Source of the DNA: Acidobacteriota bacterium
Lineage (GTDB): Bacteria; Acidobacteriota; Polarisedimenticolia; J045
Length of the DNA: 49,993 bases
Direction: 5' to 3'
Assembly (NCBI GenBank): GCA_003696075.1
Contig: RFHH01000061.1
Span: 1-49,993 of the forward strand
Shown here: positions 5 to 43,533 of the stretch, piece after piece
Position numbering within the stretch: the stretch's first letter is position 1
Layout of the letters: the number at the start of each line of letters is the position of its first letter
Notes under the pieces: model-generated
What the model was told of the DNA's origin: nothing
What the model saw: the letters and a program-made list of their open reading frames with translations, nothing else
The model's database searches: none
Position numbers and translations under genes: made by a program

Positions 5-2005
5 ATGGCTGTCTCGCGCGGGATGCGGCGGTTTCTGATCGCGGTCGCGGCAGCGGCCGTCCTGCTCGCCGCCGGTGTCCTCCTCGCGGTGCGGCTGGTC
101 GACGTCCAGCGTTACCGGCCGCGTATCGAACGGGCTGTCCTCGAGGCGACCGGGTGGCGGGCGGAACTGGGGGATCTCCGGCTTTCGCTGTGGCGGGGCT
201 TGGCCCTGACGGCGCGCCCCGTGACGCTGCGCGCCCCGGGCGGGGAGACACGGGCGGACGTCGCCCTGCTGGCGGTCGAAGCCGAACTCTGGCCCCTGCT
301 CCGGGGCGACCTGATCGTGCGGCGGATCGAGATCGACCGACCGGCGATCGATCTGGTGCGGCGGGATCCGGACCGCGGCTGGGCATTCCCGGCCGCCGTG
401 CCCGCGTCCGCCGGTTCCGAGCCCGGCATCCGGATCGACGAGATCCAAGTGAAGGGTGGCCGGATCGCGCTCGAGGACCGGACCGCGGACCCGCCGGCTC
501 GAGTGGCGTTCGAGGATGTCGCCGCGGTCATCATGCCCGAGACGGGCCGCTTCTGGGGCACGGCCCACGCTGCCGGTGGACTCGGGCGCGTCAAGTGGAA
601 CGGCACGGCCGCGAGGGGGTTCCGGATCGACATCGAGGCGCTGCGAACCGAAGTCCTCCGGGGCTGGCTGGGACCCCTTCGCGTGCGGGAGGGGGGCATG
701 CTGTCCGGTTCCGTCGAGATCGCGCCGGACTTCCGGATCAGCGGTTCTCTTCGAGGGGACGGCTTGGGCCTGGAGACGGGGGAGGCGCCCCTCGAGCGGG
801 CCAGGTTCGATTTCGATCTCGTCCCCGAGGCGGAAGGCTGGTCGTTGGCGCGCGGGGAACTGGCTGCAGGGGACGCGCGGATTCGAATCGAAGGGCGCCT
901 GGACGCCGAGCCGCGGCTGACGGCCAGGCTCCCCTCGACGCCGCTGGAGGACGCGCTGGCCCTGGTGCGCAGCCTCTTCCCGCTGCCGATCGCGATCGAG
1001 CCGCCGGGGACCGCGTCCCTCGTCGCGGAACTGTCCGGGGGCGACTCCGACTGGGAGGCGAGGGCTTCCGGCACCCTCTCGGCGGAGCGCGTAGTTCTCG
1101 GGAATCCGCTGCCACCGGTGGAGAAGGTGGCGCTTCGTTTCGACCTGGCGGACGACGGCGAGCTGCGGATCCGGATCGACGAGGGCGAGGTCGCCGGCGG
1201 CTCGCTGACCGGCTCAGCCCGGGTCGAGGCGCTCTCCGGTCCCGGCAAGGTCAGGTTCGAAGGGCGGGTCGGCGGGGCCGAGCTCGGACGCCTCCTCGCG
1301 CCGATGCTCCCGGGAGTGGCGGGGAAGGTTTCCGGACCGCTCGACCTGCGGGCCAACGTCCAGCTCGATCTCCAACGTGGTCCGAACGATCTCGCGGCGC
1401 TGTCGGGGACCGCCCGCGCCGCGGCCACAGGGATCTCGGCACCGGGGTGGGATCTCGAGGCCGCGGTGCGAAGGGCCGTGGAAGCCCGCCTCGAGGAGGT
1501 GGCGCGGAAGGCGGGCCTGCTGGAGCGGTTCCTGAAGGGCCGTCCCGAGGCGCCGCCCGCTCCTCCCGAGGCGCGGCGCCTGGTGGACCGCCTCGCCGCT
1601 GCGGTCGATCTCGGAGAGATCCCGTGGCGGTTGGCGCCTTTCGAAATCGAGGTGGGTCGGCTGACGGCATCCGGCCGCGGGCGTTTCGATCCGCGCGACG
1701 GCGGGATCGCACTCGATCTCACCGGCGCACTTTCGGCGGAGGCCAGTGCGGAGATCGTCGCCGGACGGCCGGCGCTGAGGCGGCTTCTCGATCCCCAGGG
1801 ACGCCTGGTCGTTCCCCTGCGGGTTCGCGGCACCGTGACCCGACCGGCGATCGGCGTCGACGCTTCCGGGCTCGTGGACGACAACCTGGCCGACGCGCTC
1901 CGGGAAGAGCTGACGAAAGATGCCACCGGAGAGGAAGCCCGCGGCCTGATCGAGCGCCTGCTGCGACGCCGGCGAGAGCGGCCGCAGAACGGGGGTGGCG
2001 GATGA
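5..2005 (+). CDS. AsmA-family inner-membrane protein
   Basis: This 666-residue protein has one N-terminal membrane anchor (about residues 8-30). It is followed by the AsmA-type opening 'DVQRYRPRIERAVLEATGW', in which a long periplasmic domain starts with a 'tail' repeat. The rest is the beta-rich, Gly-poor, amphipathic pattern of AsmA/YhdP-type proteins, with repeated 'G-x-hydrophobic-x-G' strands up to about residue 640. Members of this family span the periplasm and are implicated in phospholipid transport to the outer membrane, so a role in envelope lipid homeostasis is inferred. The ATG lies 4 bases from the window edge, so an upstream start cannot be ruled out. It ends in an ATGA overlap with the next gene, which suggests translational coupling. 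The last residues are Arg/Gly-rich and unstructured. Confidence 0.75.
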   Translation: MAVSRGMRRFLIAVAAAAVLLAAGVLLAVRLVDVQRYRPRIERAVLEATGWRAELGDLRLSLWRGLALTARPVTLRAPGGETRADVALLAVEAELWPLLRGDLIVRRIEIDRPAIDLVRRDPDRGWAFPAAVPASAGSEPGIRIDEIQVKGGRIALEDRTADPPARVAFEDVAAVIMPETGRFWGTAHAAGGLGRVKWNGTAARGFRIDIEALRTEVLRGWLGPLRVREGGMLSGSVEIAPDFRISGSLRGDGLGLETGEAPLERARFDFDLVPEAEGWSLARGELAAGDARIRIEGRLDAEPRLTARLPSTPLEDALALVRSLFPLPIAIEPPGTASLVAELSGGDSDWEARASGTLSAERVVLGNPLPPVEKVALRFDLADDGELRIRIDEGEVAGGSLTGSARVEALSGPGKVRFEGRVGGAELGRLLAPMLPGVAGKVSGPLDLRANVQLDLQRGPNDLAALSGTARAAATGISAPGWDLEAAVRRAVEARLEEVARKAGLLERFLKGRPEAPPAPPEARRLVDRLAAAVDLGEIPWRLAPFEIEVGRLTASGRGRFDPRDGGIALDLTGALSAEASAEIVAGRPALRRLLDPQGRLVVPLRVRGTVTRPAIGVDASGLVDDNLADALREELTKDATGEEARGLIERLLRRRRERPQNGGGG

Positions 2006-2505
2006 GCGCGGCCGGGTTGCCGGAGAGTCGCGTGGAGCAGGGGCGCTGGCCGGCACCGCTCGCGGAGTGGGGTTGGGGCGGCGTCCGTTTCAGGCTCCTG
2101 CCGGCCGAGCATCCGACTTCCGATCTCGAGCCGGTGATCGCCGTGGTCGGTCTGCTGGCCATCCTGGGGATGTGGACCCTCCCGCTCGACCTGCTCGCCG
2201 GCTTCGCCGGTGTCTGCCGGTTTCACGCCTGGACCGGCTGGCCTTGTCCCACCTGCGGCATCACGCGCGGCCTGCTCGCCGTCGCGCACGGCGATCCGTT
2301 CCGTGCGTTGCGAATGAACCCGCTCCTGATCGGGGGAATCCTGGCAACCGGTGCCTATGCCCCCGTCGCGCTGGCCCTGTGGATCTTCCGCGCACCCCGC
2401 CCGCGCATCGCTCTTCTCACGCCATCCGCTCGCTGGGGCACGCTCTTCCTTGCGGTCGCCGCCGTGCTCGCGAACTGGGCTTTCCTCGTCATCGACGGGC
2501 GCTGA
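2002..2505 (+). CDS. DUF2752 membrane protein
   Basis: This 167-residue protein begins in a 4-base overlap with the AsmA-type gene. It carries the DUF2752 signature CPTCGITR at residues 82-89, in the usual place just after the first long hydrophobic segment (about 45-70). Two more membrane segments follow (about 108-127 and 140-162), as expected for this small family. Its function is not established; the paired cysteines at the membrane surface suggest metal or redox chemistry, but that is inference. Coupling to an AsmA-like protein suggests an envelope role. Length and motif fit the family well. Confidence 0.8.
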   Translation: MSAAGLPESRVEQGRWPAPLAEWGWGGVRFRLLPAEHPTSDLEPVIAVVGLLAILGMWTLPLDLLAGFAGVCRFHAWTGWPCPTCGITRGLLAVAHGDPFRALRMNPLLIGGILATGAYAPVALALWIFRAPRPRIALLTPSARWGTLFLAVAAVLANWAFLVIDGR

Positions 2506-3016
2506 GCGGGCGCTGGCCGGCGCGCGATCGGGACCGTGTCTCCGGGCGCGCGCAGCCCCGTTGCACGGCGCGTTCCACACATGTGATGAGAGATGCACCC
2601 GGAACGGTGCACGCTGCCCGCGAACCCACTCGCGAACAATCCATTCGGGCCGAAAGCCTCGAACGGACCGGTGCCGTCGCGCGATCCTCGTGTCGGCCGG
2701 GCGACTTGGCGAAGCCGGTCGCACGATTCGGGATGCCTTTTCCACGGGACGCCCGTTGCGGCCATGGCGGCGCGACAGGTCGTTCTCGTATGACGCGAGG
2801 TCCATCCGCCAAGGTGCACAACCCAGCCCAACTCGTTGACCGTTCCTGAGTTGCGGTCGCCGCTCCGCCTGAGCGGTCTCATCCCAGACAAGTCCTCTCT
2901 TCCTTGGAGTCGCGCGCCGAGTCGCGTCGTTGAGGATGCCCTCAGGAGTGGGGGTTGACCGACCCACCCCCCGAAGAATTGCTTAAGTGTGCTCATTGAA
3001 GGGGAGGTCCGATGAA
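2506..3016 (+). other. Non-coding gap before the Cys-rich pair
   Basis: About 510 bases without a convincing gene in any frame. The base composition is less GC-biased than the flanking AsmA gene and resembles the Cys-rich genes that follow. It holds one hairpin of the GCACC-N6-GGTGC type (2595-2610, listed separately). Just upstream of the next gene there is a TTGACC hexamer (2954-2959), but no good -10 box at the right spacing. Confidence 0.5.
2595..2610. repeat. Possible degenerate REP-like hairpin
   Basis: GCACC-CGGAAC-GGTGC: a 5-bp stem with a 6-nt loop. This is the same stem as in the arms of the REPIN-like elements at 5.5-12.5 kb (GCACC-ATCGAG-GGTGC), but with a different loop. A GGTGCAC word about 200 bases downstream (near 2813) could be the remnant of a second arm. 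The rest of the element cannot be aligned, so this may be coincidence. Confidence 0.3.
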
Positions 3017-3577
3017 GTGATTCCCGAGAAGTTAGCTAGAGGTGTGGCCGCGGTCATCTCCCTCCTCCTCTTGGTCCCGCGACCCGCATTCGCGCGCGGC
3101 GACGTGCAGGCGGAGTCGATCAGGATCGTGCGGGATCCGTCCGGCAAGTTCCATGTCGAGGTCGGCTACGAGGTCGCATGGGGCGCCGACCAAGGAGAGT
3201 TCGGCTACACCCTCCTCGTCACCCAGAAACGTGCCGGCAAGGTCATCTCAGTGCCGTTGGACGTGACCGAGACGGTGCATCCTGTTGACGCCTGCGACGA
3301 AGTGTGCAGCGGCACACACGGAGCAGGAGCCTGCCACTACATGGTGGGTTCCGGTCCGACGGTCTTCGAGGGATCCTGCCGGTGGGCCCCGAATCTGCGC
3401 CCCGGACCGCGGGGAGACAAGGCACAAGACGGGTGCACCTGTTCGCGATCCGATAGCAAGCCGTCGTCGACCATCCAGCTCGCCAGCGGCGACGTCGTCA
3501 CCTTCAGCATCACGCCTTCTCCAAGCCTGCGGGGTGATGAGACCTCGAACAACTCGCTGTCTGTCACGATTCAATGA
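3017..3577 (+). CDS. Cys-rich secreted protein, paralog 1
   Basis: I do not recognise the family. The 186-residue product starts at a GTG placed 9 nt after GGGGAGG; an upstream in-frame GTG at 2987 has no such site. It has a clean signal peptide: MIPEKLARG, then a hydrophobic core, then a cut after AFA. The mature part opens with a beta-rich segment, then a central patch with six cysteines between about residues 91 and 142 (including DACDEVC and CTC). It ends with a beta-strand pattern closing in NNSLSVTIQ. The next gene encodes the same architecture (mature start, Cys patch, 'GD-x-x-x-x-S' strand, N-N-S-L/D-T-L-T-V ending), so they are tandem paralogs. An extracytoplasmic disulfide-stabilised beta domain is inferred. 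Codon use is less GC-biased than in the neighbours. Confidence 0.65.
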   Translation: MIPEKLARGVAAVISLLLLVPRPAFARGDVQAESIRIVRDPSGKFHVEVGYEVAWGADQGEFGYTLLVTQKRAGKVISVPLDVTETVHPVDACDEVCSGTHGAGACHYMVGSGPTVFEGSCRWAPNLRPGPRGDKAQDGCTCSRSDSKPSSTIQLASGDVVTFSITPSPSLRGDETSNNSLSVTIQ

Positions 3578-3588
3578 GGAGCTCAGCG

Positions 3589-4107
3589 ATGAGAAGAGCA
3601 ATGGTTTTCGCTGCGCTTACGGCCGCATGTGTCGTGCCCCCGGGTTTTGCAGATGTCGATGTCAGCGCCCATTCGATTCAATTCGAAGTCGTCGAGGGCG
3701 AACTTCGAGTCAACGCGACGTACGGGGTCTGGCACGACGAGGCACAAGCTGATTACACGATCCACGTCGAACTGGTCCAACTCCGGGACGGGGTTCCCAT
3801 CGCCACGGTCTGGCAGGACTCCCACTCCGGGCTGATCTCCAGCAGCGTCTCGAGTTGCAAGCGCGGTTGCCACGTCCAGTCGTGCACGGGAACCTGCAGC
3901 GTGGGCGGGAAGAGCGGTTCCTGCAGGACGACGGCGGAAAACTGCGACGGCAAGGACGGCTATCGAGAGTGCATGTCCGTTCTCGAGTCGGGAGCGATCG
4001 CGCTGCAGGGCGTGCACGATGGCGACATCTTCCGGCTCTCCGTCGAAGTCTCCGGTGCTACCGACGTGAACTCTGCCAACGATACCCTCACCGTCGCCTT
4101 CAACTGA
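3589..4107 (+). CDS. Cys-rich secreted protein, paralog 2
   Basis: This 172-residue secreted protein of unknown function follows paralog 1 by 11 bases. The ATG at 3589 has a GAGGA 8 nt upstream; an ATG at 3574 overlaps the previous stop and is the alternative start. The signal peptide is MRRAMVFAALTAACVVPPGFA, with cleavage near GFA-D. The mature protein starts DVDVSAHSIQFEV, matching GDVQAESIRIV of paralog 1. It then has a patch of seven cysteines (from SSCKRGC to about RECMSV) and ends SANDTLTVAFN. The two genes probably form an operon. The Cys spacing differs between them, so the disulfide patterns are not identical. Lower GC suggests acquisition by transfer or a different expression class. 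Confidence 0.65.
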   Translation: MRRAMVFAALTAACVVPPGFADVDVSAHSIQFEVVEGELRVNATYGVWHDEAQADYTIHVELVQLRDGVPIATVWQDSHSGLISSSVSSCKRGCHVQSCTGTCSVGGKSGSCRTTAENCDGKDGYRECMSVLESGAIALQGVHDGDIFRLSVEVSGATDVNSANDTLTVAFN

Positions 4108-4186
4108 CGAGTTCGACCCGGATGGCCGGGGTCCCGCCCCGGCCAACGGCCCGCGCCGGGCGGGAGTCGAATCTGACCGCTTCGCG

Positions 4187-4192
4187 TACAAT
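4187..4192 (+). promoter_or_regulatory. Possible -10 box (TACAAT)
   Basis: TACAAT sits 16 bases before the start codon of the HAD gene, in the context GTACAATC that also occurs in the better promoter at 37430-37459. No good -35 hexamer is seen at 16-18 bases, so this is weak. Confidence 0.3.
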
Positions 4193-4208
4193 CTGCGCCG
4201 GAGGTTCG

Positions 4209-4898
4209 ATGACTGCGACAACCGGGCGCGATGTGCGCGTCGTTTGCTTCGACGTCGACGGGACGCTCGTGCGGCAGCCGGAGGGCCGCACGATCTGGCA
4301 GATCATCAACGCCCACTACCACGGCGGGGACGAGATCAACCGCCGCCGTTTCCGCGCCTTCCGCGAGGGGCTGATCAGCTACCCGGAGTGGGTGACGCTC
4401 GACATCCTCGATTGGAAGGCGCACGGGGCCCGGCGCGGCGAAATCGAGGCTCTGATCCGCCGCGAGCTGACGGTCGTGCCCGGCGCTCGCGAGACGGTCG
4501 CTGAGCTCAAGCGACGTGGTTACGGCACGGCGGTGGTCTCGGGAACGCTCGACCTGGTTTTCGAGCTGCTGCTGAGCGACTTTCCCTTCGACCACGTTTA
4601 CACCAACAGGATCTTCTTCGACGAAGAGGGGCGGATCGCCGGCTTCGAGCCTACGCCCTACGACGTCGAGGGGAAGGCCGACGGCCTGGCGCGCGTGGCG
4701 CGCGATTTTGGCGTGCGGGGCGAGTCCATCGCCTTCGTGGGCGACAGCTGGAACGACCGCGCAGCCTTCCGCGCGGCCGGCTTCGCGGTCGCCTATCATC
4801 CCAAGGATCCGGGGCTCGTCGAGCTTGCGGACGCGGTCGTCCAGGACGGCTCGTTCGAGCGTCTGCTCGACCTGTTCCCGGGATCGGAGGCGGCATGA
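4209..4898 (+). CDS. HAD-superfamily phosphatase (SerB-like, class IB)
   Basis: This 229-residue protein has all HAD motifs. Motif I is DVDGT with nucleophile D15 and acid/base D17. Motif II is the Ser of VVSGT (S111). Motif IV is GDSWND (179-183). A helical cap between motifs I and II resembles SerB/PSPase-type class I caps. Family knowledge predicts a cytosolic phosphomonoesterase acting on a small metabolite; phosphoserine is possible, but the substrate cannot be read from the sequence. The ATG follows a strong GGAGG (4200-4204). The stop overlaps the ATG of the Nudix gene (ATGA), indicating coupled expression of two housecleaning-type hydrolases. Confidence 0.8.
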   Translation: MTATTGRDVRVVCFDVDGTLVRQPEGRTIWQIINAHYHGGDEINRRRFRAFREGLISYPEWVTLDILDWKAHGARRGEIEALIRRELTVVPGARETVAELKRRGYGTAVVSGTLDLVFELLLSDFPFDHVYTNRIFFDEEGRIAGFEPTPYDVEGKADGLARVARDFGVRGESIAFVGDSWNDRAAFRAAGFAVAYHPKDPGLVELADAVVQDGSFERLLDLFPGSEAA

Positions 4899-5473: not shown

Positions 5474-5532
5474 AGGCCTCCCGATCGGCGGGAGCGTGAC
5501 GGGGGAGCGGGGTTCCGGTCCGCGCGGGGAGT

Positions 5533-5735
5533 GGGAGGTGCATCCGCGACGGCGCTTCCCGATCGAAGCGATCGCACGTTTCGAGAAGCGCATCCCCGAT
5601 GTTGCATTGTTCCGTCGAGGTCGTTGGAGGGTCGAAGGATCCGGTCTCGAATGGATCGAGGCCCTGACACCGGGCCGAAGTCTTGTCTTCTCATCGAGTT
5701 TCGCGGCGTTTCGCACCATCGAGGGAGCACCCCCC
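5533..5735. repeat. REPIN-like palindromic element 1 (composite)
   Basis: The right arm is conserved: CATCGAGTTTCGCGGCG followed by TTTCGCACCATCGAGGGAGC at about 5692-5730. There are two left-type ends. One at 5533 (GGGAGGTGCATCCGCGACGG) gives a 203-bp unit. An internal one at about 5587 (GCGCATCCCCGATGTTGC) gives the usual 150 bp. It looks like a nested or partly duplicated copy. The arms are inverted relative to each other. Confidence 0.7.
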
Positions 5736-5742
5736 AGGTTTT

Positions 5743-5895
5743 GGGAGGTGCATCCCCGATGGCGCGTCGGCGCTTTCGAGCCACTCAACGTCCTGGGGTC
5801 GAAGCCTGAAACGGCTCGATGTCCGCGAGAAAGCGCCGAGACCTTCATCGGGCATCGAGTTGTGCGGCGTTTCGCACCATCGAGGGAGCACCTCC
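5743..5895. repeat. REPIN-like palindromic element 2
   Basis: A 153-bp unit with inverted arms: GGGAGGTGCATCCCCGATGG at the left, and GCACCATCGAGGGAGCACCTCC (read in two parts, GCACCATCGAGG + GAGCACCTCC) at the right. The sub-terminal TCGAGTTGTGCGGCGTTTCG is shared with the other copies. The middle of about 65 bases is not conserved between copies. It follows element 1 by 7 bases. Confidence 0.75.
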
Positions 5896-5960
5896 GACGT
5901 TTCGAGGTTGCGGTTCGGAGCGGCTCGCTTCGCGCGCAGTTGGGCCCGAGTGTCTCGTCT

Positions 5961-6004
5961 CGAACGGGTCGCGGGGCGTTTCGCACCGTCGCTGGTGCAC
6001 CTCT
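5961..6004. repeat. REPIN-like element 3, right half only
   Basis: GGGGCGTTTCGCACCGTCGC followed by TGGTGCACCTC matches the right arm of the family. No left arm is recognisable in the 65 bases between element 2 and this half, so it is a solo arm or a decayed copy. Confidence 0.55.
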
Positions 6005-8250: not shown

Positions 8251-8403
8251 GAGGTGCATCCCCGATGGTGCGTTTCTTCGTCGCAACTCGATGAGCCCTC
8301 TGCGGTTGGCGTGCCGAACCGCGCGCTTTGGCTGAAATCGGCGCCAGGGGCCCGTCTTTCATCGACTTGGCCGACGCAGCGCACCATCGAGGGTGCACCT
8401 CCC
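8251..8403. repeat. REPIN-like palindromic element 4 (best copy)
   Basis: A 153-bp unit. The left arm starts GAGGTGCATCCCCGATGGTG and continues to the CAACTCGATGA word. The right arm is TCATCGACTTGG, then GCGCACCATCGAGGGTGCAC, then CTCCC. The two arms of about 44 bases are inverted copies with scattered mismatches and could form one long hairpin around a loop of about 64 bases. Each arm ends in a small hairpin of its own (GCACC-N6-GGTGC on the right). Confidence 0.8.
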
Positions 8404-8413
8404 AATTCCAAGC

Positions 8414-12327: not shown

Positions 12328-12478
12328 TTCACAGGTGCACCCTCAATGGTGCGAAACGCTGCGCAACTCGACGAAAGAAGGGTGCTTCGGCCTCACTCCG
12401 CGGGAGGCGAGTGGTTCGCGCCCTCCGAACTTCCTACGGCTTCGACGGGCAAGCGCACCAACGGAGGTGCACCTCCCT
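12328..12478. repeat. REPIN-like palindromic element 7
   Basis: A 151-bp unit in the opposite sense to element 4. It starts CAGGTGCACCCTCAATGGTG, continues CGAAACGCTGCGCAACTCGA, and ends CTTCGACGGGCAAGCGCACC + AACGGAGGTGCACCTCCC. Its left arm is nearly identical to the minus-strand reading of the right arms of elements 1 and 2. It sits between convergent genes. Confidence 0.75.
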
Positions 12479-43433: not shown

Positions 43434-43533
43434 TGGCGGAAGCGCGTGGGAATCGAACCCACCCCCCGGCGGGGCGACCGCCGGGGCGACCGGTTTTGAA
43501 GACCGGGAGGGCCACCAGGCCCCGTTCGCTTCC
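43434..43533 (-). tRNA. selC: Selenocysteine tRNA (anticodon UCA)
   Basis: 100 nt with an encoded CCA. The acceptor stem GGAAGCG pairs with CGCTTCC. The D-arm is the extended tRNA-Sec type (GGGGCCTGGTGGCCCT). The anticodon stem CCGGT/ACCGG encloses CTTCAAA with anticodon TCA. The very long variable arm CCCCGGCGG/CCGCCGGGG and the T arm GTGGG-TTCGATT-CCCAC are present. The length, UCA anticodon and long variable arm are diagnostic. The host therefore inserts selenocysteine at UGA; selA, selB and selD are not in the window. Confidence 0.95.

Follow-up and report, generated by a model that had tools for sequence, protein, structure and literature searches.

Among the solved folds nearest to those predicted for P1 and P2, the two small proteins described here, is CARDB (PF07705), although no match reaches significance; it is represented by PF1109 of Pyrococcus furiosus (PDB 3idu and 2kl6) and is, like the two models, an Ig-like β-sandwich. 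CARDB has a similar opening strand, a closing strand resembling NN-x-L-x-V, and an extracellular setting. However, CARDB mostly occurs as one module within a larger protein, unlike P1 and P2, and is not known to have an eight-Cys loop. The Ig-like repeat domains of bacterial adhesins (5u6f and 8f9l) are also exported β-sandwiches with covalent cross-links, but there many domains are strung together in long stalks whose cross-links are isopeptide or ester bonds, whereas P1 and P2 are small, consist of one domain each and have their cysteines in a cluster. Kunitz/BPTI domains share with them a compact Cys-rich segment and a weak profile similarity; the Cys spacing and the surrounding sandwich, however, do not fit.

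The genes of P1 and P2 are located in a stretch of 49,993 nucleotides from an Acidobacteriota bacterium, hereafter the window (Table 1). A tRNA-SeC gene is found elsewhere in the window (43434-43533), which means that the organism probably makes selenoproteins. P1 and P2 lie in tandem on the same strand, with a gap of only 11 bp, and therefore probably form one operon. The hairpin after P2 has no T run and is a possible transcription end. Neither an Rfam RNA nor a sigma-70-like promoter was found near the pair.

Table 1. Features of the P1-P2 locus (positions in the window)
Feature	Position	Strand	Remarks
DUF2752 membrane protein, left flank	2002-2505	+	Pfam PF10825
Stretch between the DUF2752 and HAD genes	2506-4208	+	Carries the pair; absent here in six relatives
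Likely ribosome-binding site of P1, GGGGAGGT	3000-3008	+	Read from the sequence
P1	3017-3577	+	GTG start, 186 aa; predicted exported protein, Ig-like sandwich with 6-Cys loop
P2	3589-4107	+	ATG start, 172 aa; predicted exported paralogue, Ig-like sandwich with 7-Cys loop
GC-rich hairpin just 3' of P2, GGCCGGGGTCCCGCCCCGGCC	4119-4146	.	Read from the sequence; not listed by a separate scan
HAD-family hydrolase, right flank	4209-4898	+	Pfam PF12710

As the initial annotation described, both ORFs encode signal-peptide proteins in which a β-type opening, a cysteine cluster and a closing strand follow in the same order. By our reading, the signal peptides end with PRPAFA before RGDV in P1 and with PPGFA before DVDV in P2. 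The first strand of the mature protein contains DVQAESI in P1 and DVSAHSI in P2, and the last strand contains NNSLSV and NDTLTV, respectively. The shared ending was thus seen correctly, but its motif had been given as N-x-S/D-x-L-x-V, one residue too many: the actual motif is N-x-S/T-L-x-V.

Relatives were searched in a sample of the order comprising 12 genomes, all of one family. As had been proposed for checking, the pair was sought there, and P1 and P2 in the same order were found in G002 and G008, members of two other genera of the family. In G002, P2 and P1 show 41% and 36% identity to the window proteins, and the gap is again 11 bp. In G008, an intact P1 (45% identity) is followed after about 26 bp by a P2 (L006 1477-1779) that has lost its N-terminal half and its reading frame. 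G008 also holds one further complete member, adjoining a ResA-like thiol-disulfide protein, and one truncated member. G010 has a single P2-like gene, and P1 was not found in this genome. Directly 3' of the G002 pair there is a third small ORF (L015 7626-8027, 133 aa), which looks exported, has no Pfam match and has no counterpart in the window.

No other credible member was found when 396 genomes of the phylum were searched with a profile, or in a pattern-based scan with P2 of some 85,000 species. Phage records (P1 only), plasmid records (P2 only) and viral contigs (P2 profile) gave no match. Since several of the scans detect only close relatives, more distant members may have escaped them. 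The sole weak match of the phylum search (G364) and those in G000:C227, G004:C76, G004:C129 and G002:C272 were unrelated proteins or non-coding frames, and a match in Oxalobacteraceae (L009) was a transporter with a chance peptide match.

The pairwise BLAST comparison of P1 and P2 is marginal (27% identity, E 0.011). Nevertheless, when a profile of three P1 orthologues was aligned by hhalign with three P2-type proteins, the probability was 98.5%. With the signal peptides removed, the profile-profile score was 88.1, far above those of 150 column shuffles in which the Cys columns were kept in place (mean 15.1, sd 3.6, maximum 28.8). P1 as the sole query also retrieves P2 of G002 (E 1.1e-4). The similarity is therefore statistically clear homology and not chance, and the paralogy claimed earlier at low identity holds. 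In the tree, the P1s and the P2s form separate branches (support 98/96 and 89/90, respectively), which means that the duplication is old.

The central cluster, described as having six or seven cysteines, consists of Cys93, 97, 106, 121, 140, and 142 in P1 and Cys90, 94, 99, 103, 112, 119, and 128 in P2. Members with the full set have a common eight-Cys pattern, C-x2/3-C-x3-6-C-x3/4-C-x8-15-C-x5/6-C-x7-12-C-x-C, which is whole in P1 and P2 of G002, in P1 of G008 and in the loop of the G010 member. The ancestral loop would have had eight cysteines, of which window P1 keeps six and P2 seven. P1 lacks the third and the sixth, both together; this joint loss suggests that these two pair with each other. 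P2 lacks the eighth, and the resulting odd number leaves one cysteine with no obvious partner. The signal peptides and the Cys pattern together point to export of both proteins and to the formation of disulfides.

AlphaFold2 models were built on seven homologues only and are nonetheless confident, with pLDDT 79.9 and pTM 0.72 for P1 and pLDDT 84.7 and pTM 0.77 for P2. In both models, four long strands are followed by a Cys-rich part with shorter strands and then by three strands. The folds of P1 and P2 were to be compared, and the predicted ones appear alike, as judged from the succession of their elements, from the alignment and from the test of homology. The Foldseek matches in the PDB, none of which was below E 0.001, were for the most part Ig-like domains of a generic kind (integrin, factor XIII, adhesin, CARDB). 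The CARDB entries 3idu and 2kl6 had the best target-normalised TM values among the top PDB rows (0.45 and 0.44); over both models, these entries gave a target TM of 0.42-0.45, a probability of 0.80-0.84 and an E of 0.08-0.17. The fold is thus modelled as an Ig-like β-sandwich with a disulfide-rich insertion, nearest to CARDB, and no family membership is assigned. A search of viral structures gave generic Ig-like folds only; its single E below 0.001 had a TM of 0.2 and was ignored.

No family had been recognised for either protein, and P1 and P2 indeed had no family match in Pfam, NCBIfam or PADLOC. The CARDB profile gave no match up to E 10 for window P1 and P2 and none up to E 1 for the relatives (set A1). 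DUF3109 (PF11307) matched one member only, with 16.1 bits, below the Pfam cut-off of 33.5. Matches to the Kunitz/BPTI profile were at chance level (E 0.07-1.5), and the Cys spacing differs from the six-Cys Kunitz spacing. A literature search on these proteins found nothing relevant. The family appears to be new to the libraries searched.

The genes flanking the pair, DUF2752 and HAD, are present in all 12 genomes. They adjoin directly, within about 6-106 bp, in six (G001, G002, G003, G005, G006, and G009), and are on separate contigs in two (G007 and G011). In G004, G008, and G010, a gene on the opposite strand lies between them (L060, L064, and L065); it encodes a ParA/MinD-like ATPase, so named from its sequence rather than by a family scan. 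P1-P2 occupies this position in the window only, that is, in one of the 12 genomes. In G002, a PD40 propeller gene and an NYN gene are separated by 2,176 bp, which the pair and the third small gene fill; in the congener G003, only 43 bp lie between these flanks, whose DNA is 79-82% identical. Two different sites are thus each filled in a single genome and vacant in relatives. The pair has another chromosomal site and other neighbours in each of the three genomes that carry it: it is an accessory cassette whose place in the chromosome varies among a few related species.

The DNA of the pair had been noted as less GC-rich than its surroundings. Its GC content is 62.8% against 71.8% for the window, within the lowest 1.1% of stretches of the same size (1.09 kb), and its codon usage is atypical as well: z is -5.6 for P1 and -5.1 for P2, compared with -2.6 to +2.1 for 21 other genes of the window, which served as the reference. 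A second low-GC stretch of the window lies at 26.9-30.0 kb. Third-position GC is also below that of the neighbours in the G002 and G010 members, with a small difference in G008, so that low GC3 may characterise the family as such and need not point to recent acquisition.

From the empty-site comparisons together with the atypical codon usage, transfer or transposition of the pair is likely, in a direction that we infer; the site comparisons strengthen what had been suggested from low GC. The genes might instead be native to the family and cleanly deleted in most relatives, with unusual codons resulting from weak expression and fast evolution. No recombinase or mobility gene, terminal repeats, inverted ends or target duplication were recognised at the cassette borders, which leaves room for such deletion, and both the recurrence of reduced GC3 and the existence of remnants agree with it. 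However, the different sites and neighbours in every genome holding the pair, and the filling of the window site in a single genome, speak against this, and we regard descent with no transfer as somewhat unlikely. At 5532-6003, 8251-8405, and 12333-12378, the window contains short elements that resemble MITEs or REP elements and have inverted ends (GGTGCATCCCCGATGG ... CCATCGAGGGAGCACC). When up to 3 mismatches are allowed, the 3.3-Mb genome contains their right end 59 times, against 0 for the reversed control; the elements are not linked to the P1-P2 cassette.

As the neighbours differ in every genome, they are of little help concerning function. P1 and P2 might be partners or inhibitors of secreted proteases, binding subtilases encoded nearby: in G010, the single member is followed on its own strand, after about 20 bp, by an S8 subtilase, two subtilase-like genes come after the pair in G008, and there is the faint resemblance to Kunitz inhibitor domains. 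However, neither the window nor G002 has a protease gene adjoining the pair, secreted proteases look common in these genomes, and the Kunitz scores and spacing described above do not favour inhibition, so that this role seems quite unlikely. Even less probable is that a mobile cassette carries here a toxin/immunity-like pair with which bacteria compete. Although two small adjacent genes with patchy presence, different sites and atypical composition would suit this proposal of the initial annotation, P1 and P2 are homologous, probably both exported and built alike, and no toxin, immunity or defence model in Pfam, NCBIfam or PADLOC matched. Moreover, each occurs with no intact partner: G008 keeps P1 beside the broken P2, and the P2-like gene of G010 was found with no P1. 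The other early proposal, that the proteins may be structural units of the surface or modules of adhesins, would agree with the predicted Ig-like fold.

The explanation we prefer is that an old tandem duplication gave rise to two exported proteins, each of which would be an Ig-like β-sandwich with a disulfide-rich loop, ancestrally of eight cysteines, inserted within the sandwich. Within a single family, the pair may have moved as one accessory cassette into different sites of the chromosome in a few genera, and decayed in places. P1 and P2 most likely work outside the cytoplasm as paired binding or structural proteins, with the stiff Cys loop as a putative contact surface; this role is our best guess and is consistent with the fold, the pairing and the patchy accessory presence. 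Taken as a whole, this account seems to us to have an even chance of being right. That the cassette encodes a lineage-specific secreted complex for recognition or competition, built of two Ig-like Cys-loop paralogues and of a kind undescribed before, would be a rather improbable extension of it. Secreted proteins of small size and Ig-like fold, encoded by an accessory cassette, are as a kind ordinary enough.

P1 and P2 represent a small protein family that none of the searched libraries contains. The presence and absence of the pair at its sites suggest two genes moving as a unit between chromosomal places although no mobility gene was recognised. Should the two paralogues assemble into a complex, they would be a simple case of duplicated exported domains becoming an accessory surface function.
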